From positions 27,970 to 91,969 of the forward strand of contig CACVBU010000049.1 of NCBI GenBank assembly GCA_902728285.1: a stretch of 64,000 bases of DNA, given 5' to 3'. Within the stretch, counting starts at the first letter, position 1; every line of letters starts with the position of its first letter. A program made the position numbers and the translations under genes. The notes beneath the pieces are model-generated. The model did not search any database, was not told where the DNA came from, and saw only the letters and a program-made list of their open reading frames with translations. Of this stretch, positions 25,933-49,700 are shown in pieces. Source of the stretch: Clytia hemisphaerica. Lineage: Eukaryota > Cnidaria > Hydrozoa > Leptothecata > Clytiidae.

Positions 25933-26937
25933 TTATTTCTTACTTTCTGCAATTTTGGTTACTGTGTCATTGTGCAGAAAAATATCAAAGGTGCGAATCT
26001 TCAAAATTTTCTTTGGACCTCCAACAGATTCCACAATTTCTTCAGTTATAAAAAAATCCTCAACATTGTTGTTTTCATCAAGGGTGGTGACAACGACTCC
26101 TTTATCTTTCATTGTCTCGGCTGACAGTTTTTTACATGTTGGATACGGGCACGTATAAATTCCATCTTCGTCAATAATGTCAGTGGAAATGTTCCCTTTG
26201 CATGCGATACATTTCAAATCATCTAACAAATTGATAGACTGGATAGTGACTCTTTTTGAATTGACAATTGGAATGGTTTTCTTCACTACAAAATTTTCGT
26301 TTCTTTCAATCACGGTGGTCAGCATTGCTTCCACTTGTCTGTTTTGGTTGAAACTTGTAATTTTCACATTATGGATGTTGTATGAATTCTTTTCCATGAT
26401 CGGAAGTTGTTTGAAGGAAATTAAGTCAATTATATTAGAATTGTCATTAATAGTGTATGTATAAATTGTTGAATTTGAGTTTTCCTTGACACTGTGATTA
26501 ACAACAGTGCCCTTTAATGATGTAACTTTTTTCAATTCCAATTTAAATATGATGTCATCAATTTTCACGATTTTTCCAACAGCTTCCTTAAACGGTGCAT
26601 CCAATTTTTCTTCTGAAATAATTGTTGAAATGGCATCTAATTTCAATTCCTTTGTTGCATTATTAGAAAGGACATTGCCCATTTTCAATGCAGTTGTAGC
26701 TTTATTGTTTGCAAGAAGAAGTTTCTCTCTCAAAGGTGGGAAAAATGATACACACCTTTTAGTTGTGTCTTCTTGAACAGCCGCAAATTCAAACCATTTA
26801 ATTGAAGATCCATGACTGTTTTTTTTCGGCGATGTTATCACTTTACTCAAGTTTTTAACTGTGAATTTGGTGGTTATTCTTTCTTGATCATCATTATCCA
26901 ATTTTCTTCTTTTAGGAGGGGTTTTTGAATAATCCAT
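25933..26937 (-). CDS. RPA-like single-stranded DNA-binding protein of the Helentron
   Basis: A single intact exon of 334 codons starting MDYSKTPPKRRKLD, an N-terminal basic patch that could act as a nuclear signal. The middle is beta-rich, low in Trp and consistent with tandem OB folds. Near the C-terminus Cys243, Cys246, Cys263 and Cys268 form a zinc-ribbon arrangement comparable to the C-terminal OB/zinc domain of RPA1. In Helitrons such proteins are thought to coat single strands made during rolling-circle replication. It is on the same strand as the Rep and helicase ORFs, 1.5 kb downstream, which supports co-ownership. The OB-fold call is by pattern, not by alignment. Confidence 0.65.
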   Translation of the reverse strand: MDYSKTPPKRRKLDNDDQERITTKFTVKNLSKVITSPKKNSHGSSIKWFEFAAVQEDTTKRCVSFFPPLREKLLLANNKATTALKMGNVLSNNATKELKLDAISTIISEEKLDAPFKEAVGKIVKIDDIIFKLELKKVTSLKGTVVNHSVKENSNSTIYTYTINDNSNIIDLISFKQLPIMEKNSYNIHNVKITSFNQNRQVEAMLTTVIERNENFVVKKTIPIVNSKRVTIQSINLLDDLKCIACKGNISTDIIDEDGIYTCPYPTCKKLSAETMKDKGVVVTTLDENNNVEDFFITEEIVESVGGPKKILKIRTFDIFLHNDTVTKIAESKK

Positions 26938-28410: not shown

Positions 28411-30641
28411 TCAATCGTAGAGTGCCAAGTTAACAAAAACGGTAAAATGATCACTGTAAGGGGATGGCATCCATTCTGCAGGTTTATTGCAACGATCATC
28501 AAAGATAAGGTCTAACGTATTCCCATCAATATGAGTCGGATCTTGACAACGCTGATAATAAATGTTTGGTGGCAATACTTCATTGAGGTCATTTCTGTTA
28601 TCAGGTAGATTGAAATCACCAAGAATAACAGTTGAGTAGTTTACTGGGTCAATTTGTTGCCAAAGTTGATCAAGCTCAATTTGAAGTGATTGTATGAACA
28701 AAGGTATAGAGCTTGTTGGTGGTCTGTAAAGCAAAACAATCAAGTAAATTGTGTTTTTTACGGCAACCAAAACTGGAAGTAAATCTAAGTCACTAACGGT
28801 ATTCAATGTTTTTATGACATTCACATGCATCGCATCATAACTAATAGCTAACCCATGAACAGTTCTTTGATGAATGGTTTTCCAGTTCCGTAGTTTTTCA
28901 TCATCATCTAGTTTTTTTCTGATGTCATTACCGGTCTCTGTAAAGCATAATAAACAACATCGAGACGTATGTAGGCTATCTGATAGAAAATGATTGATAT
29001 GCAAATTCCATGATCGAATATTGAAAAGGCACAAATTTTGACCATTCATTTTTTCTAATGGATGCATTATTGATAAGACTTTATTGGTTCTCATTTCTTC
29101 CATTGCTTCTTTTGCTTTGGAGTTGACAATTATGTGCTTTTCGTGATTGAAGTTTAGTAAATGTATTTTATCACTCGATGTTGCACGAGAAAGAAGAGTA
29201 TAAAGCAGTCCTGGTCCAACTGGTGCTACTCCTTTTCCACTTCTAGTAGATTGGTCTAAATTTCCACTAGCATATTCTAATGTACTTCCTTGTGCTTTGT
29301 GAATTGTGGTTGCAAAAGCGACAATCAATGGAAATTGTTTTCTCGTCACAAATATGCCACCTGATGTTTTAAATGTTTTTACTTCTGGTAATATCGGTAC
29401 GCATGTTTTAGCTCTCCTCGTAGTCTTGGGTCTTTCAATTTATTACCTGAGGAAGGGTTATCAAATTTAACGAATATAACTCCTGAAGGCTTGTTGTTTC
29501 GGATTCCTTGGATATTTTTGACAATACCAGTTGATCCATTTATTAATTTATCCTCTATATCTTTGTTAATTGTAAGCATGACTCTAGCCCCAACACATAT
29601 CGTTAGTTCTTTTGTAAGTCCTGCAGTTTCGTTAATCGGAACAAATTTATTTAGGGATACCTTAGTTCTTGACTCATCTTTCGCTATTGAAGTGCGTTTG
29701 TTAGTCCAATCATCACATCTTCTCAAACACATATCATTTTGTTGGTCTTTCATATGGTTTGTGATGTACATTTTTACAAAATTCTCAGGCCAGTCACTTG
29801 TATCAGTATGCTCAAACGATTTGATTTTTTCAACGTCAGCTGATGTATGGTTACCTTCACGGAGTCTGTTAAGCAATGCTGCAAATTCTGAATCTCCACT
29901 TTGTCTCACGATTTCATCTAATTCATACAGATTAAATTCTTCCCAAGTGAAATCAAAAGGTTTTGGCTCGTAAATTGAATTTTGTCCAACAGGGACTAAT
30001 TGAAAGAAATCACCAATCAAAAATATTGAAACTCCGCCAAATGACTCTACGTAGTTTTCTTTTATCTCTTGTAACCTCTCATTTAGATCTTTGAAAGTCT
30101 TTTCACCTGTCATTGATATTTCATCGATCAATAAAATTTTTAAATGTTTTTTGAATTTTATTCTTAAGTTGTGCAATTCGTCACCACTCAATTTCTTTTT
30201 TATAGAATAAGAACCTTTTCCATAGATTGGCAGTTTAAAGGCTGAGTGCAAAGTAGTTCCGTCAACATTTGTTGCTGCTTTTCCAGTTGATGCAGTTACA
30301 AAAACAGATGGTTCTTTATCATTATCCTGTCCTGGTTCTTTGAGAATCTTTTTCATTTGCTCTGTCAATGTTCGTACTAAAAAGCTTTTTCCTACACCTG
30401 CACCACCGGTTAAAAGAAGTCTAAATGGATCTGGTTTTTCGAGTGATGAATTTTTGTCGGCAAGTTTAACAGTTAATACATATTTGAACAGATAATTGAA
30501 CAAGTTTCGCTGTTTTTTATTGAAGTTAGAACACATATCGTAGAACAAATTAAGAGGCATGTCAGGGTTTCTGTCAGATGTCGTAAAAGGAGCAGATGAT
30601 ATTTCGTTTGTTGAGTTATCGCCTTCATTTTCAAATAACAA
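28411..30641 (-). pseudogene. Helentron Pif1-like helicase plus EEP endonuclease, one frameshift
   Basis: The first part (30641-29379) is a superfamily 1 Pif1-like helicase with Walker A GGAGVGKS (residues 79-86), Walker B LLIDEIS (about 170-176) and downstream motifs. The frame breaks at the T run 29406-29409 (an A run in the coding sense). One base appears to be missing there, and the alternative frame continues seamlessly as ILPEVKTFKTSGGIF into the final helicase motif (TTIHKAQGSTLEY, then LLYTLLSRA). The C-terminal part is an exonuclease-endonuclease-phosphatase domain: FTET, LYRPP, ILGDFN, NTLDLIF and the YSDH box. That fusion is typical of Helentrons and is thought to assist target cleavage. 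The frameshift may be real decay or a sequencing error in a homopolymer. Confidence 0.88.
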
Positions 30642-31176
30642 TAGCGTTCAGTTTGAGGTCGTTGTTGTTATTTTCTGCCCGCGCAGTTTGATTATTAGCC
30701 CGAGAGTGTCATTTGGGCCCGACGCGAAGCGGAGGGCGCAAATGGCACTAGAGGGCTAATAATCAAACTGCAAGGGCAGAATTAATGACGACAACGAACG
30801 AAAGCTTAACGCTATTACTATTATTATCCATATCAGAAATTCAAACAACGTTTTTTTCTAGCGTCAGCCAAGTCTTTTCGCTTCAATGCAATGACTTCAA
30901 CAAGTTTTGAGTACCCTTGCAAGCGGGCCGCAAATGACCAAAAAGTGTTTTTTTCTAACGTCGGTTTAGTCTCACCGCTTCAATGCAACGACTTCAATAA
31001 AGTTCCGAGCGGGCCGCAAATGACGTTATCGCCCTATAACCAGGGCGGTTAATGATATTTCAGCCCTCTGAAGCACGACGCTTTAGTTTTCTCAGCGCGG
31101 GTATGACTATTTGAGTCATAGAACCTTTCAATACCGCCCGCCGTTCGAATCTTTAATGGCTTACTTAATGACCGCT
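30642..31176. mobile_element. 0.5-kb repetitive insertion splitting the Rep-helicase gene
   Basis: The Rep ORF ends at a TAA encoded by the insertion's first bases (AGCGGTCATTAA on the minus strand) and the helicase ORF resumes at its other side in a different frame. Ends are weakly inverted (AGCGGTCATTAA versus AGCGTTCAGTTT). Inside is a 165-bp hairpin (arms about 30645-30705 and 30762-30818, with GCAGTTTGATTATTAGCCC) and a ~95-bp tandem duplication (30849-31024) ending each time in GCGGGCCGCAAATGAC. Unlike the rest of the locus it is GC-rich. No clear target duplication was seen. Confidence 0.7.
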
Positions 31177-34100
31177 ATATGGATAATAATAATCCATATC
31201 AATCAAATCTGGATGAATATTGCGGTAGTCATTCTCTAGTTCATCACCACTACTATTTTCAGAATCGGAACTGTCGTAAACAGGTATATCATTTATATCG
31301 ATTTCATTCACTGCTTCAAAATTAGGATCATGTTTCAAAATATTTGATCTAATATCCTCTTCAACTTCGAGATATCTTTCTTCAAATGTTTCACAGTTTT
31401 CTTTTAAATTATCTTCATTTTCCCAGGGCATGTACAATTGTAATAGCACCATGTAATATTCGTTTCTATTTTTGAGTTTACTAACTTTGTGATAACGTAT
31501 TACGCATGGACGAGTTCTTTTCTTCATTTTGCCCATTCCGTTTTTCAGTGTAATTGACTTGGGTAAATCATTGTTTATTTCAAGAGTTTCGTCAATCTCG
31601 TCATCTGTTTCATTTGCTCCCACTTCATTTTCTGTATCTTTCTTGGGATATGTGTAAGTAGAAGCAAAATCTGCGTAGCACATGTTTTTCAATTTCCTGG
31701 GACGATTTTCATACTTATCAATCATATTCTTTTGGTAAACATTTTTGGAATCGGGGTCAAGTTTAGCTAGATCAGACGGATTTTTCAATATTCTCGTACG
31801 TTTCTCTTTAGGCCCTGTTGGAATGTATTCGACATTGATATTTGACGTTCTCATTTTCAGAGAAAGTGTTCTTTCGATGGCTTCATGAGTTGAAACTTCA
31901 CGCTTCGTTAAAAATACGTTACCTATTGCACGTAATTTATCTTTTACAGCTTTTCCTGTTGCCTCTTTATGTGCCTTTTTCATAAGTTCACTCATATTCC
32001 TTTCAGGCTTGCACATGTAAGAAGTGATATATGCTAAAACTGCATACATATTTGTAACATATTGAATATTCATGTTGGACTGTAATATACTAATCATGAC
32101 TGTGTTGTATGGACCAATATTGGTTTCGTTAGGCGTTCTTTTATACAGTACAGTGAGCTTCTTTTGAACTGTATCTAATGCAGAAAAATAGCCGTCTCTT
32201 GAAAGATCACATGATTGTAACAAACCATCAAGGGTAACATCTTGGAGATCAGTACTACAATTATTGATTTGGTCAAGAACTCTATCCAGGACTTTTTTAC
32301 TTGCTCTATATTCGTTTTTGTCGATTTGTTTACCTCGAATAATGCGAGTTTCTTCACATGGTGGCCATGGAGCCTTAAATCTACATCTCGATCCACTTTT
32401 CTTTCTACATGTTGTTGTATGATGATGCTTTTGAACGGTATTGACTAATGCATATAGCTTTGGGTATTCTTTTTTATCTGGCAATGAACAGGTAATATAT
32501 TTGTCGATAAAATCAACAACTTCGTTGTCTTTATTGGAATCATTTTCATCAATTTTAGGCGCATCTTTGATATGCACTTGAGCGTGAACGTGCTCTAAAC
32601 CTGTTCGATGTTGAAATTCTCTACGGTCATCATAATTTAAAATTTGTCCGATTGGATGCATACCATTCATGAGCATTTTGGGGAAAACCTTATTGAAAAT
32701 ATGATCAATTTGCCTAGCTACTGTCACAGGGTTCCTTTTGAAATATTGAACTTTTTCACTCCAGTTCATATTATTGACATCTTCATCAGTTAAATTCTCT
32801 CCGTATTGCATAGCAACTACTTTGATAATATTTGTCCACTTAAATAGTGCAGCTGTCCATGTAAGAAAGTACGTGCTAGGTCCAAAAACTCGACATTTTG
32901 CTAAAACATCTAACATCATGTTATGACACCATTGTGGGGTTCCTCTAATGTTCTTAAACGAGTTTTGAAAAATTTGATCATCAGATATCATTTGTCTGAC
33001 ATTATCAGGATTCGTTAATCTTCCAGCCGATATATCGCTTTGAAAATGTTTTTTTTGAGAGAAACTAATTGCACTGGCAACATTTGCGCTTTCAGTCCAA
33101 TGTAATGCATTGAAAATATATTGTGGATCAGAAGCAAATCGATCATCTGAAGATTTTAATCTCGCATGAACATATTTTGATGGAGTTATGTTTCTTTCTC
33201 TGGGTGAATTAAAATAATTTTTGGCATCAGGATAATGACCTGGAAATGCTAAAGCTTCCCAATCAGGTTCAGAATAGAATGACACTGGTATTTCATTTTC
33301 GCAAGGAGCAATATTGACTATTTGGTCAGACGATATTTCAGAGGTAGATTGTTTATGAGCAATTTCAATAGCTTCTTCTGAAGAGATTGTTGCACCGGTA
33401 ATGTTATACAATAAAGTTGGCTGAGAAGTGTTATTATCTTTTATCTGTTTTTCAAGGTCATGATCATTTCCTTCGATATTATCATCACTATCACTTTCAT
33501 CATCCTGAGATTGAGCATTTTTGTCTGTCAAAAGTGACCATAATTCTGGGTCTGATCGTAAACTTTCATCTTCCCATCTAGCATTTGGTGCAACGTTTTC
33601 ATAGAATTGATTGATTTCAACTAATTTTTGCAGTGCCTTTGTTACAAAAGCGGGTCGTATGTTTTGCTTATTAACAGAACTTTTATCGGAAAGGCGTCGT
33701 TTTAAAGCAAGAGAAATTAAAAATTCGTCACTACAAATTCTCGGTAAGACCTTTTGAATTTTGTCTAAATTTGCAGGTACCATTACGCACTGTCCTTTTA
33801 AACCTTGTTGTCCTCCTTTATGCTTTGGTACAATAAACATAAATGGAATTATTTGGGAAACTAGCATCATTTCGATTGGACATAATTCCTCTAATTCCGG
33901 AAGTTTTGGCGATAACTGAAGGTTATTAGCTTGGGCTCGTACAGGCAGTTGTTCCTTTTTTATAGCTTTATCACATGGGTGGCAAATCCAGTAAATTTCT
34001 TCAGGATCACAATCAGTATTAGATACATCACACAATTCAAACATGGTCAAACTTTCATACTCCTTGTGAAGAAACCTTTTGCCGTTTCCTTTATACTCCC

Positions 34101-36222
34101 ATTTTATGCAAATATGACATTTATTTGTAGGACCTTCTTTTATCGCACATTCAAAGTCTCGCTGAACAACTTCAAATGCTTTAGTTAATGTGATGGATGG
34201 ATCAACCATACTTTGACCTTGCACTTTATAAAATTCTTTTTCCTTTTCGGATCTATTTAGAAGCCGGTAAGTTTTTTTCATCGTTTTATCTTGTTCTCGA
34301 ACAATTTCTTTGTCTGATTCATCTTGATTTTTTCTCAAATTTTCCATTCTTTTTGAAGCAGATTTTCGATCTTTAGCTTTGTCTGATTCTTCTTGATTTT
34401 TTCTCAAATTTTCCATTCTTTTTGAAGCAGATTTTCGATCTTTAGCTTTGCCTGATTCATCTTGATTTTTTCTCAAATTTTCCAATCTTTTTGAAGCAGA
34501 TTTTCGATCTTTAGCTTTGTCTGATTCATTTTGATTTTTTCTCAGATTTTCCATTCTTTTTGAAGCAGATTTTCGATCTTTAGCTTTGTCTGATTCATCT
34601 TGATTTTTTCTCAGATTTTCCATTCTTTTTGAAGCAGATTTTCGATCTTTAGCTTTGTCTGATTCATCTTGATTTTTTCTCAAATTTTCCTTTCTTAATT
34701 TGTCTGATTTTCGAACTACTTCTTTTTCAATTACGTCTTGGTTTTCCCTCATATCTTTCTTTCGTTTCCTATCAGTTTCTCGAAAGAGTTGTTTTTTGAT
34801 GCCATCAAGATTATACCTTGATTTTTTCATTGCAGCTTCTTTTGACACAGCCGTGAGGTTATGCTTTCTTTTAACAGGAGTAGACTTAACAATTTCAGAC
34901 TGTTGTTCTTTGTTTCTTGAAGCTGTGACTTTATGTTCTTGATTTTCTATTTCTTTAAGAAGAGCTTTTTTCATCATTTGTTCTGGCTTCATATTAAGCG
35001 ATTGATCAACATTAAAATCAATTTTATTTAAGTCGTAATTAATATTTTTTCCTTCAGTTTCATCTATTAATTCAGGTTCAATAAGAGTGGAAGTGAGATT
35101 TTTAGAGTCGCCCTTAGAGATTTGCTCATTAGGATTAATATTTCTATTCACAGGCATAGGTTCCATTTCTCCATTAGATTTCTTGAAAATCAATAAGTAA
35201 GGAACTGTTTGATCATTAAGTTTGCAGTTAAAATCATCACCTTCAAAAGGGGTAACACGCTCGTCATTCACCGAATACCATTGTTCGTTATATTTCACAG
35301 CGGATGTATAATGCCCACTATTAGGTGTATCTCCTTGGTGATAAACAATTGCTTGTAATTTTAGACTCCCTAGAAGAACGGTTTCTATTTCTGATTCAAT
35401 AGTTATATTAGGAACTAATTTTCTCAATACCCCGTGAGTTTGATCATAACGGAAAATGACAAGTTGAACGATCAAGGCATCAGAAACGTTGAATAAGGTT
35501 CTACTTTTTGTCGCATTTGTTCTTGTTGGGCAATGAAAGCAATTGTAGTCTTCGATGAATTCACCGTAAGGGTCGTTAGTCAATTTCTCAATGTAACTTT
35601 TTACTGAATTCTTAGGATTATAAGGATCAGGAAATTGAATCCGACACATATTGTAATATTCAGTGCGCTCAGATGGATTATTGCAATTTTGGCATAAAAT
35701 TGACTCCAAAAAAGACAGTCGAAATGCACTTTCTACAGGAATATCATTTAGAATAACTTGATATACGTGATTCAAAATATAATTTATACATTCTTGAGCA
35801 TCAAATTGTTGTCGTTGTTTATAATCATACCCCGGAAGAACTATTGACTTTATGAATTCGTATGTTTCTATGGAAGATTCAGAGCTTTCTATTATTGAAA
35901 ACAATTCTTTTATTGCTAAATTACTAGAGTTATTATATTCATTATTTTTGATAAATTCTCGGAAACTGTCAATGGTGTATAATGATTGAACAACTGAGTT
36001 GAAGAAACAGACATTTTGACCTAGGTTTTTCAATCCTATTGGTTTATTTTCTCTCGGGCAATTTGCAGTATCAAAATTTGACTTATTTGGGGTTCCTCGA
36101 AAACACTTTTTCTTTTTCGGTCTTCCTTTTGGAGATTCAATTGAATTATTGATAGGCCCTGGATTTAATTCTACATCTCCATCTAAAATAAGCTTACTGG
36201 CTTTTAAAAAAAGTGGTATCAT
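31165..36222 (-). CDS. Helentron ORF: 2A-like peptide, ubiquitin-specific protease, Rep nuclease
   Basis: 1685 codons. Residues 1-23 form a hydrophobic leader ending in GDVELNPGP, an exact match to the 2A ribosome-skipping consensus D(V/I)ExNPGP. Residues 60-347 are a ubiquitin-specific protease domain: Cys box GLKNLGQNVCFFNS (Cys72), QQFDAQE (141-144), paired CxxC (177/180 and 228/231) and His box NSGHYTSAVKY (His304). A Lys/Arg-rich linker includes six 23-residue repeats (KSASKRMENLRKNQ-type, about 505-640). Residues 1010-1550 are the Helitron N-terminal Rep region, with NPVTVARQ, the HUH-like LEHVHAQVH (about 1209-1217), CRF.APWPP and the Tyr pair AYITSYMCKPE (about 1395-1403). A tail of acidic residues ends at the insertion-derived stop. 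The frame is open upstream to 36408 but has no ATG there, and a 68-codon ORF from 36400 overlaps the start. The protein would nick and rejoin transposon DNA. Confidence 0.92.
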   Translation of the reverse strand: MIPLFLKASKLILDGDVELNPGPINNSIESPKGRPKKKKCFRGTPNKSNFDTANCPRENKPIGLKNLGQNVCFFNSVVQSLYTIDSFREFIKNNEYNNSSNLAIKELFSIIESSESSIETYEFIKSIVLPGYDYKQRQQFDAQECINYILNHVYQVILNDIPVESAFRLSFLESILCQNCNNPSERTEYYNMCRIQFPDPYNPKNSVKSYIEKLTNDPYGEFIEDYNCFHCPTRTNATKSRTLFNVSDALIVQLVIFRYDQTHGVLRKLVPNITIESEIETVLLGSLKLQAIVYHQGDTPNSGHYTSAVKYNEQWYSVNDERVTPFEGDDFNCKLNDQTVPYLLIFKKSNGEMEPMPVNRNINPNEQISKGDSKNLTSTLIEPELIDETEGKNINYDLNKIDFNVDQSLNMKPEQMMKKALLKEIENQEHKVTASRNKEQQSEIVKSTPVKRKHNLTAVSKEAAMKKSRYNLDGIKKQLFRETDRKRKKDMRENQDVIEKEVVRKSDKLRKENLRKNQDESDKAKDRKSASKRMENLRKNQDESDKAKDRKSASKRMENLRKNQNESDKAKDRKSASKRLENLRKNQDESGKAKDRKSASKRMENLRKNQEESDKAKDRKSASKRMENLRKNQDESDKEIVREQDKTMKKTYRLLNRSEKEKEFYKVQGQSMVDPSITLTKAFEVVQRDFECAIKEGPTNKCHICIKWEYKGNGKRFLHKEYESLTMFELCDVSNTDCDPEEIYWICHPCDKAIKKEQLPVRAQANNLQLSPKLPELEELCPIEMMLVSQIIPFMFIVPKHKGGQQGLKGQCVMVPANLDKIQKVLPRICSDEFLISLALKRRLSDKSSVNKQNIRPAFVTKALQKLVEINQFYENVAPNARWEDESLRSDPELWSLLTDKNAQSQDDESDSDDNIEGNDHDLEKQIKDNNTSQPTLLYNITGATISSEEAIEIAHKQSTSEISSDQIVNIAPCENEIPVSFYSEPDWEALAFPGHYPDAKNYFNSPRERNITPSKYVHARLKSSDDRFASDPQYIFNALHWTESANVASAISFSQKKHFQSDISAGRLTNPDNVRQMISDDQIFQNSFKNIRGTPQWCHNMMLDVLAKCRVFGPSTYFLTWTAALFKWTNIIKVVAMQYGENLTDEDVNNMNWSEKVQYFKRNPVTVARQIDHIFNKVFPKMLMNGMHPIGQILNYDDRREFQHRTGLEHVHAQVHIKDAPKIDENDSNKDNEVVDFIDKYITCSLPDKKEYPKLYALVNTVQKHHHTTTCRKKSGSRCRFKAPWPPCEETRIIRGKQIDKNEYRASKKVLDRVLDQINNCSTDLQDVTLDGLLQSCDLSRDGYFSALDTVQKKLTVLYKRTPNETNIGPYNTVMISILQSNMNIQYVTNMYAVLAYITSYMCKPERNMSELMKKAHKEATGKAVKDKLRAIGNVFLTKREVSTHEAIERTLSLKMRTSNINVEYIPTGPKEKRTRILKNPSDLAKLDPDSKNVYQKNMIDKYENRPRKLKNMCYADFASTYTYPKKDTENEVGANETDDEIDETLEINNDLPKSITLKNGMGKMKKRTRPCVIRYHKVSKLKNRNEYYMVLLQLYMPWENEDNLKENCETFEERYLEVEEDIRSNILKHDPNFEAVNEIDINDIPVYDSSDSENSSGDELENDYRNIHPDLIDMDYYYPYSGH
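34300..34710 (-). repeat. 69-bp coding minisatellite (six copies)
   Basis: A 69-bp unit repeats in frame six times in the protease-Rep ORF, each encoding 23 residues around KSASKRMENLRKNQ and DESDKAKDR. Copies differ at only a few bases, so the array expanded recently. The peptide is highly charged and probably helical. Confidence 0.95.
36154..36156 (-). other. Predicted 2A skip point (Pro codon)
   Basis: The motif GDVELNPGP occupies residues 15-23 of the ORF starting at 36222. In the 2A mechanism no peptide bond forms between the final Gly and Pro, here residues 22 and 23. If active, it would release a 22-residue leader and start the protease-Rep protein with Pro. Activity is inferred from the motif alone. 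Confidence 0.6.
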
Positions 36223-36408
36223 AAGGAATCGGGTTATTTGAATTGCTTTGTAACTTTGAGTGGCGTTTATAATGGTCGTGCCTTGATTGACCTTCGCAAT
36301 GGCAATTATAGTCCTGCCAAGGTAGTAAAAGAGAGTATCTCTTGCTACCTTGACGGTGCCTTCGTGGACTTTGGCTGTTATCAGCTCTTTTAATGGGCAT
36401 TTTTTTAT

Positions 36409-37240: not shown

Positions 37241-38706
37241 GGGTCCACTTCGGCCCTTTGGAGGTAAGACCGTATGAACCTCGGCTAGGCCCGCGACTCC
37301 CGTGGTCCTTTTTAACTCAAAGTTTATACGAAGTTTATATGTATATCACTATACGACATAAAACGAAAACAGCTGTATATATATTTTTAGAAAACATAGT
37401 TTGCTATATTTATACCAGATTATTTGGTGATAAAAGAGATTTCAATAAAAAACAAGAGATGAAAATTCGAGGAAATGTCAAAAAAACGGTTTTTCCGGCA
37501 TATTTCCGGCATTTTCGGCTGGAAAAAAATGTTTTTCGAAAATCGAGCTCCGTCACATTTTAGGTATTGTCATTTTGCATCAGTGTGAAAAATTTCATAA
37601 AAAAATATAAAGTACAGCTCGAGAAATTCAAGAAATACTGTCTTTCCAGCGAAAATAGGTTGTTCCGGAGATTTTTAAATAGTTCCGGCTTCAAAATTCA
37701 ATTTTATTGAAAATTGAAACATGCTTGATGGTGGGCATTGCTATTAATAATGTGTTTGAATGAAAAAACAACCATTTAGAAGGAAAAAGCCCAATGAAAA
37801 CCAAGAAAACAGCGATTTCCGGCATATTTCAGGCATTTTCCGCCGGAAAAAATTTTCTCAAAAATCAGACTCGGTCATGTTTTGGGCATTGTTAATACGC
37901 ATCTTTGTGCAAAAAATCAGAAAAAACTAATGATAAAATCTCGAGAAAATGCCAAAAAAACAGTATTTCCGGCATATTTCCGGCTTTTTCGGCCGGAAAA
38001 AAATGTTTTTCAAAAATCGGGCTCTGTCACATTTTAGGTATTATCATTTTGCATCAGTGTGCAAAATTTCATAAAAAAATATAAAGTTCAGCTCGAGAAA
38101 ATCAAGAAATACCGTTTTTCCGGCGAAAATGGGCTGCTCCGGCGATTTTTAGAAAGTTCCGGCTTCAAAACTCCGTTCTATTGACGATTGAACCGTGCTT
38201 CATGGTGGGCATTGCTATTAATAATGTTTTTGTGTGAAAAAACAACGAAATATAAGGAAAAAGTCCAATGAAAATCTGCAAAAATGGCGATTTCCGGCAT
38301 TTTCGACCGGAAAAGATTTTTTCTCAAAAATCGGACTCGGCCAAGTTTTTGGCATGGCTAATACGCATCTTTTTGCAAAAAATCAGAAAAAACTAAGGAT
38401 GAAATCTTGAGAAAATGCCAAAAAACCGGTTTTTCCGGCATATTTCCGGCATTTTTGGCCGGAAATGATTTTTTTTCGAAAATCGGGCTCCGTCACATTT
38501 TGGGCATTACCATTTTGCATCATTGTGCCAAAAATAAAAAAAAATTAATGAGCCAATCCTGAGAAAAGCTGGTAACAGACGGACGAACGAACGAACGAAC
38601 GAACGAACGAACGAACGAACGAACGAACGAACGAACGAACGAACGAACGAACGAACGGACATGGGTTAATTTATAGGACCTCCACCGGGGCACCCGGAGG
38701 TAGGTC
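37241..38706. repeat. ~470-bp tandem repeat ending in a (GAAC)n tract
   Basis: A unit beginning near TTTCCGGCATATTTCCGG starts at about 37480, 37950 and 38417 (period near 470 bp, just over two copies). Units contain repeated CCGG-centred words (TTCCGGC, GGCCGGAAA). A (CGAA)n tract of about 19 units follows at 38581-38657, then a conserved terminus GGTTAATTTATAGGACCTCC ending GGAGGTAGGTCC. The terminal part recurs inverted at 48757-48940, which marks this as a dispersed, probably transposable, element with an internal satellite. The left border is not defined. Confidence 0.8.
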
Positions 38707-39215
38707 CAAAAAGCAAAAAGTATTTAGGTGGAACCAAAATAGAAAAAATATATCTTACCTTGAATGAAAGAGGCTAGCAAAAAGCCCCAAAAGCACAACA
38801 TATACCACCAACCTGCATAGGTAAAACTGAATAATCCTTGTAAACTTTTGATGATTGTAGAAAACTGAAGCTAAAATGCAAACACTTACCTTTCTCAGAA
38901 TGTATGAATAACAAAAACAACTAAGATGTAACCTTTAAATTTTCAAAGCTTGAAAAGTTGCTCATTCTTTAACACCCAAAATTCAAAACGAAGTGGTCTG
39001 TCGGCTTTTCTCCCTCCAAAATTTAGGAAAGCACTCCTCCGTTCTCAGAACCTCTAAAATGAAGCCGTGGCAGAATGTTCTAGTCTGTTAATCAGCAGCC
39101 TCTCACCAACTTTTGCTCGTTCTCCTATGCAGCTCCTATTCTAGCAAACGACCGCCGCCTTTATGTTCCCGCCCTCTGACATGATTAATTAACAGACTAG
39201 TTTGCTAGTCTATGC
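38707..39215. other. Noncoding
   Basis: No coding region, repeat or RNA gene recognised. Confidence 0.4.
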
Positions 39216-46700: not shown

Positions 46701-49700
46701 AATGGGAAAGTCATTTGTGGTTTTCATTGTCTGTAATCACGGTCAAGGTGGGCAAATCAGGGGGTAAATACACCACTTCTTGGTAGTTGTTGCCTGAATT
46801 TTGATGTTTTTCATGGCTCCGCCCCCCCCCCCTTATTTGGGGGGGGTGTAAATCTCTAATTGGCTTAAAAGTGGGTGGGAGCTGTCTCATTTTTTAAACT
46901 CAGGGGGGACCTAAAAAAGTGGGGGGAGCTGAAGGGCTACAATAAAGTTCTGGGGGGCTAATCAGGAAACTGTAAAATATCCCCTCACTATTGTTTTGGT
47001 TAATAAGTTAAGGATTTTTCTATTGAATTTATTATCTCTTACATTCTATCAAAATGTGGGCTAAAATGGCAGATTTCTACCCTTAAAATTCCAAAATTTT
47101 CTTGTTGCCCAACCATGGTGGGCAACATTTATTTAAATTTTCAATTTGGACCCCCAATTTTTTTTAACCCCGGCATTTTTTATGATGATGTACATGAATC
47201 TTTCTTCTCTTCCTCAGTTGGTTNNNNNNNNNNNNNNNNNNNNNNNNNNNNNNNNNNNNNNNNNNNNNNNNNNNNNNNNNNNNNNNNNNNNNNNNNNNNN
47301 NNNNNNNNNNNNNNNNNNNNNNNNNNNNNNNNNNNNNNNNNNNNNNNNNNNNNNNNNNNNNNNNNNNNNNNNNNNNNNNNNNNNNNNNNNNNNNNNNNNN
47401 NNNNNNNNNNNNNNNNNNNNNNNNNNNNNNNNNNNNNNNNNNNNNNNNNNNNNNNNNNNNNNNNNNNNNNNNNNNNNNNNNNNNNNNNNNNNNNNNNNNN
47501 NNNNNNNNNNNNNNNNNNNNNNNNNNNNNNNNNNNNNNNNNNNNNNNNNNNNNNNNNNNNNNNNNNNNNNNNNNNNNNNNNNNNNNNNNNNNNNNNNNNN
47601 NNNNNNNNNNNNNNNNNNNNNNNNNNNNNNNNNNNNNNNNNNNNNNNNNNNNNNNNNNNNNNNNNNNNNNNNNNNNNNNNNNNNNNNNNNNNNNNNNNNN
47701 NNNNNNNNNNNNNNNNNNNNNNNNNNNNNNNNNNNNNNNNNNNNNNNNNNNNNNNNNNNNNNNNNNNNNNNNNNNNNNNNNNNNNNNNNNNNNNNNNNNN
47801 NNNNNNNNNNNNNNNNNNNNNNNNNNNNNNNNNNNNNNNNNNNNNNNNNNNNNNNNNNNNNNNNNNNNNNNNNNNNNNNNNNNNNNNNNNNNNNNNNNNN
47901 NNNNNNNNNNNNNNNNNNNNNNNNNNNNNNNNNNNNNNNNNNNNNNNNNNNNNNNNNNNNNNNNNNNNNNNNNNNNNNNNNNNNNNNNNNNNNNNNNNNN
48001 NNNNNNNNNNNNNNNNNNNNNNNNNNNNNNNNNGCAGCCCTGAAAATACTAAATACTGTCTGTTTGAAATTTTCTGATGTATTGCATCAAGTATATCATA
48101 AACCCCCTAGTTTGTGTCTCATTAAAAGTTGTTTGGGTAGGTCCCAGACTTAAAAGGGTCAAAAATTAAAAAAAACCCAAAATTTTTCCCTTTTTTTTTC
48201 CCCAGGCAAACCTATAAAAATAATTTTTCACAAAAACTTTTTGCCGAAAATAATCATCAGCCTACCTTGAAACTTTTTGCAAAGTTTCAAAGCAATTGGT
48301 CAACTGATTGACTAGATACAGCAAATTATATCATCCCTGGAATGGCATTTTCCTTAACAAATCCTTACAAAGGGTAAAAAGTACTCCCTAAACTCGGGCC
48401 CAGTATGAAAAATTGACCAGGAGTTAGCTTTGGGGACCGACTATTTCCAAAACTAGGATAGTTGAGGATTCCAAAAATGTATAGTTTATCCTGTAGAATC
48501 TTGGGTTAAGCAAAAGTGCTTATTTAAGGAGATATAGGATTTGGCTCCCGGACTATATATACATTTGTTTTTTTGGACTGACTTGGAGATAATTATGATA
48601 AAGCGTAAATGGAAATTGATCAAGTATATTAAAGTACCGCTCCTATGTGAATTTGAGAAAGACCAAAGTTCTTGATCAAATTATTGACGTAAAAATGATT
48701 TTTTCTAGACTTAAGTTTTCACTGCGATTTGAAAGCAGACACTTGCATTTGTTGGACCTACCCCGGTGGGGTGGAGGTCCTATAAATTAACCTTTGTCCA
48801 TTCGTTCGTTCGTTCGTTCGTTTGTTATTAGCTTTCCTCGTGATTGGTACATTTGTTTTTTCTGATTTTTTGCACAAAGATGTGTAACTATAAACCCTCG
48901 AATGTGACGGAGCCCGATTTTCGAAAAAAAATTTGGGGGGCAAATTTGGGCCAAAAAACGGCTAAAATTCTCACCCTAGAGACATTCTTTAGGTATTCTT
49001 ACAATTTAGTCCATTATCACACTGATATATTCTTATAGACACTATTCTCACAACAAAGTGTTTAGTTCATATTTGTAACTTTTCTTTACTTTAGTGAAAC
49101 TCCAGAAGATTCTTGGCTGAAAAAGTCGTTAGAGAAGAGCGAAGAAATCGATCCGGACTTTGACCCAAATCAAAAAGATTCTGATGGAGATGATGATGAA
49201 CCTCTGCTGTATCGTGCATCGAAGATACCGTACAATTTTAAGAAAGATCGAGTTCTCTTTGTGTATGAAAGTCAATTGAAAAAGCTGATGAAGACTTGTA
49301 TGAAATGTGACGAAACAGTAATCAAACATGAAGTTTCAGAGTTACAAGGCACGCAGTACAACGTGAAAATGGAATGCTTGAACGGCTGTTTAACCACGTG
49401 GTCCTCACAACCCAAAGCTAAAAGTTTAAAAGGTATGTTTTATCCAAAGAATTTAATCAGGTCTTTATTCACTCAAGAAAAAATGTCAGCTAAGAAAATC
49501 ATGAAACCTTTTTTAAATATCTTTGTCAACGTCCATAAATTTTTCTTTTCAGGAATAGGCAATCTGATGGTTACATCTGCTATCGAATTGTCCGGGATAT
49601 CATATCCCAAATTCAAACGATTTGCACATGCATTGAACTTAAAAATAATGGAAAAAACTACCTTCTTCGATCTGAGGGGTAAGAATTTTTTTGTTGCTGA

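Follow-up and report, generated by a model that had tools for sequence, protein, structure and literature searches.

A decayed Helentron of Clytia hemisphaerica with a 2A-type motif ahead of a ubiquitin-specific protease, and other Helentrons of the same genome with 2A ahead of a tegument-type protease

The 64,000 nucleotides of Clytia hemisphaerica DNA analyzed here, called the window (contig CACVBU010000049.1, positions 27,970 to 91,969), contain an old and damaged Helentron, an endonuclease-bearing Helitron, as indicated by a Rep domain, a PIF1 helicase, an apurinic/apyrimidinic (AP)-type endonuclease and a 5' palindrome. The best explanation of the whole, with a probability of about 0.7, is that it is a damaged member of a family encoding a leader, a 2A (StopGo) motif, a ubiquitin-specific protease (USP), a basic repeat array, DUF6570, Rep, PIF1 helicase and AP endonuclease in that order, together with an RPA-like open reading frame (ORF), and that such elements would combine StopGo translation with deubiquitination. 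Sibling copies retain both the 2A motif and the USP, and the order of leader, 2A and deubiquitinase recurs in other Helentrons of the genome with a VTD domain (herpes-tegument-type, PF04843) in place of the USP. The pair of 2A and USP is common to a sibling clade and no one-off. The wider point, which lay beyond the view of an initial annotation of the window, is that many further Helentrons of this genome have 2A ahead of a different deubiquitinase.

That annotation, made from the letters alone, had called the element a Helentron and had placed in one frame a 2A motif, a USP with intact Cys72 and His304, a basic repeat array and a Helitron Rep domain. All of these were recovered, and both profile searches that it proposed, for UCH/USP and Helitron_like_N, returned matches (E 1.2e-27 and 1.7e-11). 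The Helentron label also holds, the helicase, endonuclease and RPA-like ORF lying outside the range of 31165 to 36408 that the annotation covered. The ORF is real and lies in one frame, reaching from stop to stop over that range, but its strand had to be corrected to minus; it encodes 1685 residues, from an ATG at 36222 to the stop at 31165. The parts of the element are listed below from its 5' end (L numbers denote loci and C numbers contigs).

38676 to 38707, minus strand: 5' subterminal palindrome, common to three sibling elements, on C928 (L003, L033), C654 (L004) and C633 (L042)
37447 to 38567, minus strand: tandem array of a 152-nt unit towards the element's 5' end (Tandem Repeats Finder, TRF), with homologous stretches in L042, L033, L024 and L025
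36184 to 36400, minus strand: what is left of the family leader (its ATG at 36400, MPIKRADNSQSP...), frameshifted ahead of 2A in the window copy
36154 to 36180, minus strand: 2A or StopGo motif GDVELNPGP, residues 15-23; at the same place in L002, L008 (as GDVESNPGP), L024, L025, L026 and L029
35188 to 36039, minus strand: USP (peptidase C19, Pfam UCH PF00443), residues 62-345, with Cys72 and His304; E 1.2e-27
34308 to 34696, minus strand: basic repeat array, 5.6 copies of a 69-nt unit (TRF)
33589 to 33954, minus strand: DUF6570, residues 757-878; Pfam E 3e-15
32581 to 33174, minus strand: Helitron_like_N (Rep, PF14214), residues 1017-1214; Pfam E 1.7e-11
about 30634 to 31188, strand not assigned: 555-nt insertion cutting the Rep-helicase frame; siblings are contiguous there
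29379 to 30641, minus strand: PIF1 helicase part; Pfam E 1e-25
28411 to 29349, minus strand: helicase C-terminus and AP-type endonuclease (Exo_endo_phos_2 0.0011, Exo_endo_phos 0.0017, both below the cut-off)
25933 to 26937, minus strand: second ORF, OB-fold/RPA-like, with a weak POT1 match only (E 0.42)

The Rep region of the window ORF contains HVH from residue 1211 and YITSYMCK from residue 1398, which we take to be the catalytic motifs of Rep (HUH and the two Tyr). GDFN and SDH boxes, presumably endonuclease motifs, are visible in the endonuclease ORF. The endonuclease is placed behind the helicase alike in the window, L033, L034, L036 and L037, and in L033 it is in frame with Rep and helicase.

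The 2A motif is not a chance occurrence, because the pattern GD[VI]ExNPGP, searched as DNA, has 349 matches (185 + 164) in the 417-Mb genome against 0 for the reversed pattern, and because siblings keep the motif at the same place. The octapeptide DVExNPGP is present in all seven of the 2A-bearing USP copies (the window and the six loci listed above), which include L008, with a USP region 65% identical to that of the window; all seven had themselves been recognized by the 2A motif. For the same reason, a very low ratio of nonsynonymous to synonymous substitution (dN/dS) in the 2A core was discarded as proof of selection. The window octapeptide, DVELNPGP, agrees with the StopGo core (D/G/C/N)(V/I)ExNPGP (PMC12846837). 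Cross-counts of 2A with other element parts cover the first 100 of the 349 2A places, that is, contigs up to C261; beyond it, USP copies were examined for 2A at loci that were read or were matched by the leader search.

The boxes of the USP domain in the window are all there (Cys72, His304, N319-D320 and a CxxC...CxxC finger), and its closest PDB profile matches are USP46 and USP12, at 1.6e-17 (USP46) to 1.9e-16. In nine aligned copies the catalytic Cys and His, the D after N/D and the four finger cysteines are invariant. A larger alignment has fifteen rows, among which L010 and L025, and likewise L013 and L024, are the same loci, and L011 and L012 are partial; the USP of L029 is without three residues ahead of the first finger cysteine. 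Across 300 codons behind 2A in six copies, the ratio of nonsynonymous to synonymous differences (pN/pS) is 0.33. The genome holds at least 133 USP-domain matches (132 of 304 candidates scored), 33-100% identical, and some of them, besides the subfamilies of the window element, sit in frames of 2000-2247 codons. Together, the many matches, the invariant catalytic residues and the pN/pS argue that the USP has long belonged to a Helentron lineage and been retained there. L033, a USP copy without 2A, is a single stop-free frame of 2461 codons with UCH (3.4e-23), DUF6570, Rep, PIF1 and a sub-threshold endonuclease. About 400 nt behind this intact ORF, at L033:9161-9583, is a MACPF (perforin-type) domain (E 5.7e-11), which may be a host gene or captured.

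Relative to these siblings, the window copy is decayed at both ends of its ORF. The Rep frame stops at 31165 because of the 555-nt insertion, which is missing from the siblings compared; 189 nt at the insertion's 30634 end (30634-30822) match themselves in inverted orientation. At the other end, 217 nt separate the conserved family ATG (36400) from the Asp codon just ahead of GDVELNPGP; this ATG is out of frame with 2A, and its frame meets a stop first. Six aligned siblings have 186, 228 or 231 nt here, in frame in each, giving leaders of 62, 76 or 77 codons. A conserved TTTAG upstream might be a splice site. A genome search with a sibling leader likewise found the window leader broken into two frames, covering query residues 1-71 and 68-109. 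The 14-residue leader of the window ORF is thus an artefact of a frameshift that severs the family's own leader, and the earlier description of a protein that starts with 2A reflects an accident of the damaged copy; a family protein beginning 14 residues before 2A was ruled out by the same comparison. By eye, an inverted repeat (CAAGGTAG...CTACCTTG) is visible inside the leader (window 36180-36400), and L002, L025, L026 and L029 are without a 42-nt stretch there.

The same head, with another enzyme, is found in the VTD Helentrons. At least 100 VTD matches were obtained in the genome, 34 of them on the contigs covered by the cross-counts. A 2A motif lies 13-103 nt upstream on the same strand in 20 of 34 VTD matches, and none does in a strand-swapped control. 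It also lies 5.2-9.2 kb upstream of 18 of 22 distant helicase/endonuclease matches (strand-swapped, 0) and, among nine near endonuclease matches (those of the USP family), of two. L034 and L037 encode leader, 2A, PF04843 (1.4e-8 and 3.1e-7), DUF6570, Rep, PIF1 and endonuclease in a single frame. L036 has the same order in one frame (PF04843 5.8e-7), which opens in mid-leader because a stop interrupts the leader; the frames of these three are 2168-2257 codons long. L035 has the same head (PF04843 5e-9), but its Rep and helicase are in a second frame. Of the first 100 2A places, 28 can be linked to Helentron parts by their coordinates. This is likely an undercount because among five 2A loci without such a tie that were read (L038, L039, L046, L047 and L048), three look VTD-like: a tegument-type match follows 2A in L048 (7.9e-6) and in L046 (5.1e-4, under the cut-off), and L047, with no Pfam match there, has a leader 65% identical to that of L034. 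L038 was left unclassified. By eye, a tegument-like stretch follows the 2A of L047 (C133:880689-881389), and the sequence of its QC box, SADKQS, suggests a possible loss of the catalytic Cys.

VTD-type leaders that were read whole (L034, L035, L037, L046 and L047) start with MISIxxYRxxIGxF, comprise 62-111 residues and include a hydrophobic stretch. They look constrained to judge from their codons, with dN/dS of 0.22-0.36 in 8 of 10 pairs, although silent differences in five of those eight are at or above 0.67 and near saturation, and the other two pairs are saturated. The USP leader has no evident likeness to them. A likeness does occur in L039 (C49:721000-726000), an element of non-LTR type. 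Close to its Met it has YRACIGFF, followed by SGDIEVNPGP and an endonuclease; a reverse transcriptase was recognized by eye. Among these leaders the best match to its own is that of L047, with 7 of 8 residues and an E of 5e-4 (the comparison was small and uncorrected; for the others E is 0.015 or worse), which gives no more than a hint of a head common to different transposon classes.

A small tree of 16 Rep rows places this in a historical frame. USP and VTD elements separate at 100/100. The 2A-bearing USP rows group together at 83/99, below the tree's star limit, with L003, L005 and L014 outside, L014 being scored as 2A-negative on just the 186 nt that precede its USP match. The 2A-negative L044 and L045 adjoin the 2A-bearing L034 (99/94). 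On this topology 2A appears to have been gained or lost more than once.

Under the preferred reading, the ribosome would release the leader at NPG/P and then continue, so that the chain of deubiquitinase, Rep, helicase and endonuclease would be leaderless, with Pro first. The USP would then strip ubiquitin from the transposase chain or its partners and spare them from the proteasome, a protective role that has also been suggested for VTD domains of other Helentrons (PMC9741609). The layout of the ORF matches this functional reading, in which skipping would free the protease-Rep protein and the deubiquitinase protect it. Because the slot behind 2A is exchangeable, holding either USP or VTD, it points to selection for a deubiquitinase at that place and not for one enzyme family. 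A broader generalization is given even odds: the leader-2A-deubiquitinase head would be a standing part of the Helentron replication protein, skipping, considered uncommon beyond RNA viruses and certain retrotransposons, would be common in rolling-circle DNA transposons, the deubiquitinase would be an exchangeable cassette (VTD or USP), and 2A would have been gained or lost several times.

Several observations weigh against the preferred reading. Of 33 USP matches on contigs up to C261 (those starting at query residue 20 or earlier), only 2 have a 2A within 600 nt upstream, and the USP relatives L003-L005 are without it. The expectation that siblings would share the features was borne out for the catalytic residues and not for the motif, and 2A as a fixed part of USP Helentrons was ruled out by the 31 matches and three relatives that lack it. 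With 14 of the 34 VTD matches also without such a 2A, as well as L044 (PF04843 2.5e-11) and L045, close relatives of L034, the motif is evidently dispensable. The hexapeptides ahead of DVELNPGP (RLIVDG, KLILDG, QGIIDG) do not match the motif classes of PMC12846837 cleanly; what they have in common with those classes is the G adjoining the octapeptide and, in the case of DLTxDG, also the D in front of that G. Rep, helicase and endonuclease are not in one frame in the window, nor in L031 and L032, the two USP siblings with 2A that were followed along their full length. The endonuclease is always under the Pfam curated cut-off, in the window as in L033, L034, L036 and L037 (0.0057 to 0.00056). 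Finally, the USP-family leader is weakly constrained, with dN/dS of 0.40-0.81 in pairs that differ and a pooled ratio of 0.56.

These points lend some weight to the possibility that the GDVELNPGP of the USP family is a poorly working or dead remnant, acquired once with the leader by one subclade, and that only USP, Rep and helicase matter. The confinement of 2A to one USP subclade, the weak constraint on the leader and the atypical upstream hexapeptide would all be expected. However, D-V-E-x-N-P-G-P is kept in the seven copies read, as distant as L008, even if the motif served to recognize them. The indels of the USP leader, of 42 and 3 nt, preserve the frame, and among the 21 rows of the sibling-leader search ten loci are open across leader, 2A and the next 22 residues (on C341, C933, C545, C633, C443, C780, C65, C875 and, twice, C643; frames of 165-2010 codons); in other rows C539 is only partial, and C624, C408, C332 and C517 are split or stop-bearing. 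Overall, a remnant seems doubtful, with perhaps one chance in four. Somewhat less probable again is dual targeting, in which the leader would be a signal or membrane anchor: failed skipping would send the fused transposase into the secretory route, and skipping would leave a free cytosolic deubiquitinase-Rep protein able to reach the nucleus. Such an effect has been demonstrated for the N-terminal 2A signal sequences of sea-urchin NLRs (PMC4981915), and the five whole VTD leaders each contain a 17-residue stretch with a mean Kyte-Doolittle value of 1.91-2.14. In contrast, the best such window reaches only 0.81 in the USP family (L024), and 0.25 and -0.26 in the cut-short VTD leaders of L036 and L048; moreover, a secreted transposase has no evident use. 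Helitrons often pick up host gene fragments (PMC4289320, PMC4528327), and the USP might be one, carried by chance outside the element's machinery. This is very improbable in view of the number and range of identity of the USP matches, the long frames in which some sit, the intact L033, the pN/pS and the invariant catalytic residues.

The reading preferred here, a broken copy from a leader-2A-USP family, can be compared with systems already described. Non-LTR retrotransposons of the APE (AP endonuclease) type are reported to bear 2A (Heras 2006 and Odon 2013). As in those elements, 2A is here in frame with the element's enzyme, and L039 is such an element in this genome; unlike those reverse-transcribing elements, the ones considered here are rolling-circle DNA transposons. 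The initial annotation noted that some Helitrons encode OTU-type proteases, which is correct: Helentrons encoding VTD and OTU deubiquitinases have been published (PMC9741609; PMC4067079), and those of the VTD type from zebrafish Helitrons show activity in vitro (PMC9741609). The window family shares with them Rep, PIF1 helicase, AP endonuclease, a putative RPA-like ORF and an element-encoded deubiquitinase (OTU besides or instead of VTD), but differs in that the deubiquitinase is a USP (C19) with 2A ahead (PMC9741609; PMC4067079). The main text of PMC9741609 does not use the terms NPGP, skipping, 2A peptide, 2A-like or USP domain, and ubiquitin-specific proteases appear there only in the introduction and a reference. 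A literature search, whose reach did not extend to the 2A survey of Rao et al. 2025, Odon et al. 2013 or Repbase, gave no paper naming a 2A or a USP in Helitrons among the records listed. Within that scope, the earlier suggestion that the 2A-USP combination was undescribed in a rolling-circle transposon stands, although deubiquitinases in Helentrons are not new as such; the USP and the order of 2A and deubiquitinase would be. In sea-urchin NLR proteins, too, 2A ends an N-terminal leader, but these are host proteins, and the USP-family leader is not strongly hydrophobic (PMC4981915).

Skipping at 2A is described as frequent among RNA viruses but unusual for cellular genes (PMC12846837), and 349 motif matches in one genome, with 28 of the first 100 tied to rolling-circle transposons, would move that boundary. 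Among the VTD-type loci, the hexapeptide before 2A is TLLLSG in L034, L036, L037 and L047, which fits an L-rich upstream class ending in (A/S/C)G, and that class works in vitro (PMC12846837). The repeated pairing of 2A with unrelated deubiquitinases raises the question of whether transposons relying on a very large Rep-helicase protein to replicate must fight its ubiquitin-dependent removal. The genome offers natural comparisons of copies that have 2A with copies that do not (L034 and L044; L002 and L003).

The palindrome, which is preceded by T's and folds into a hairpin of -12.6 kcal/mol (z -3.57 against shuffles), marks the element's start near 38709. The 3' end was searched for and not found. 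Between the endonuclease and the RPA-like ORF there are 1.5 kb; in C65 and C633 relatives of this ORF follow the endonuclease on the same strand at 2.5 and 2.7 kb. If the ORF belongs to the element, the element measures at least some 12.8 kb. A single scan of viral contigs gave no relative. Elsewhere in the window, at 48749-48934 on the plus strand, the 5' end of the element occurs once more (GGACCTACC...GGAGGTCCTATAAATTAACC), which may represent a non-autonomous relative.

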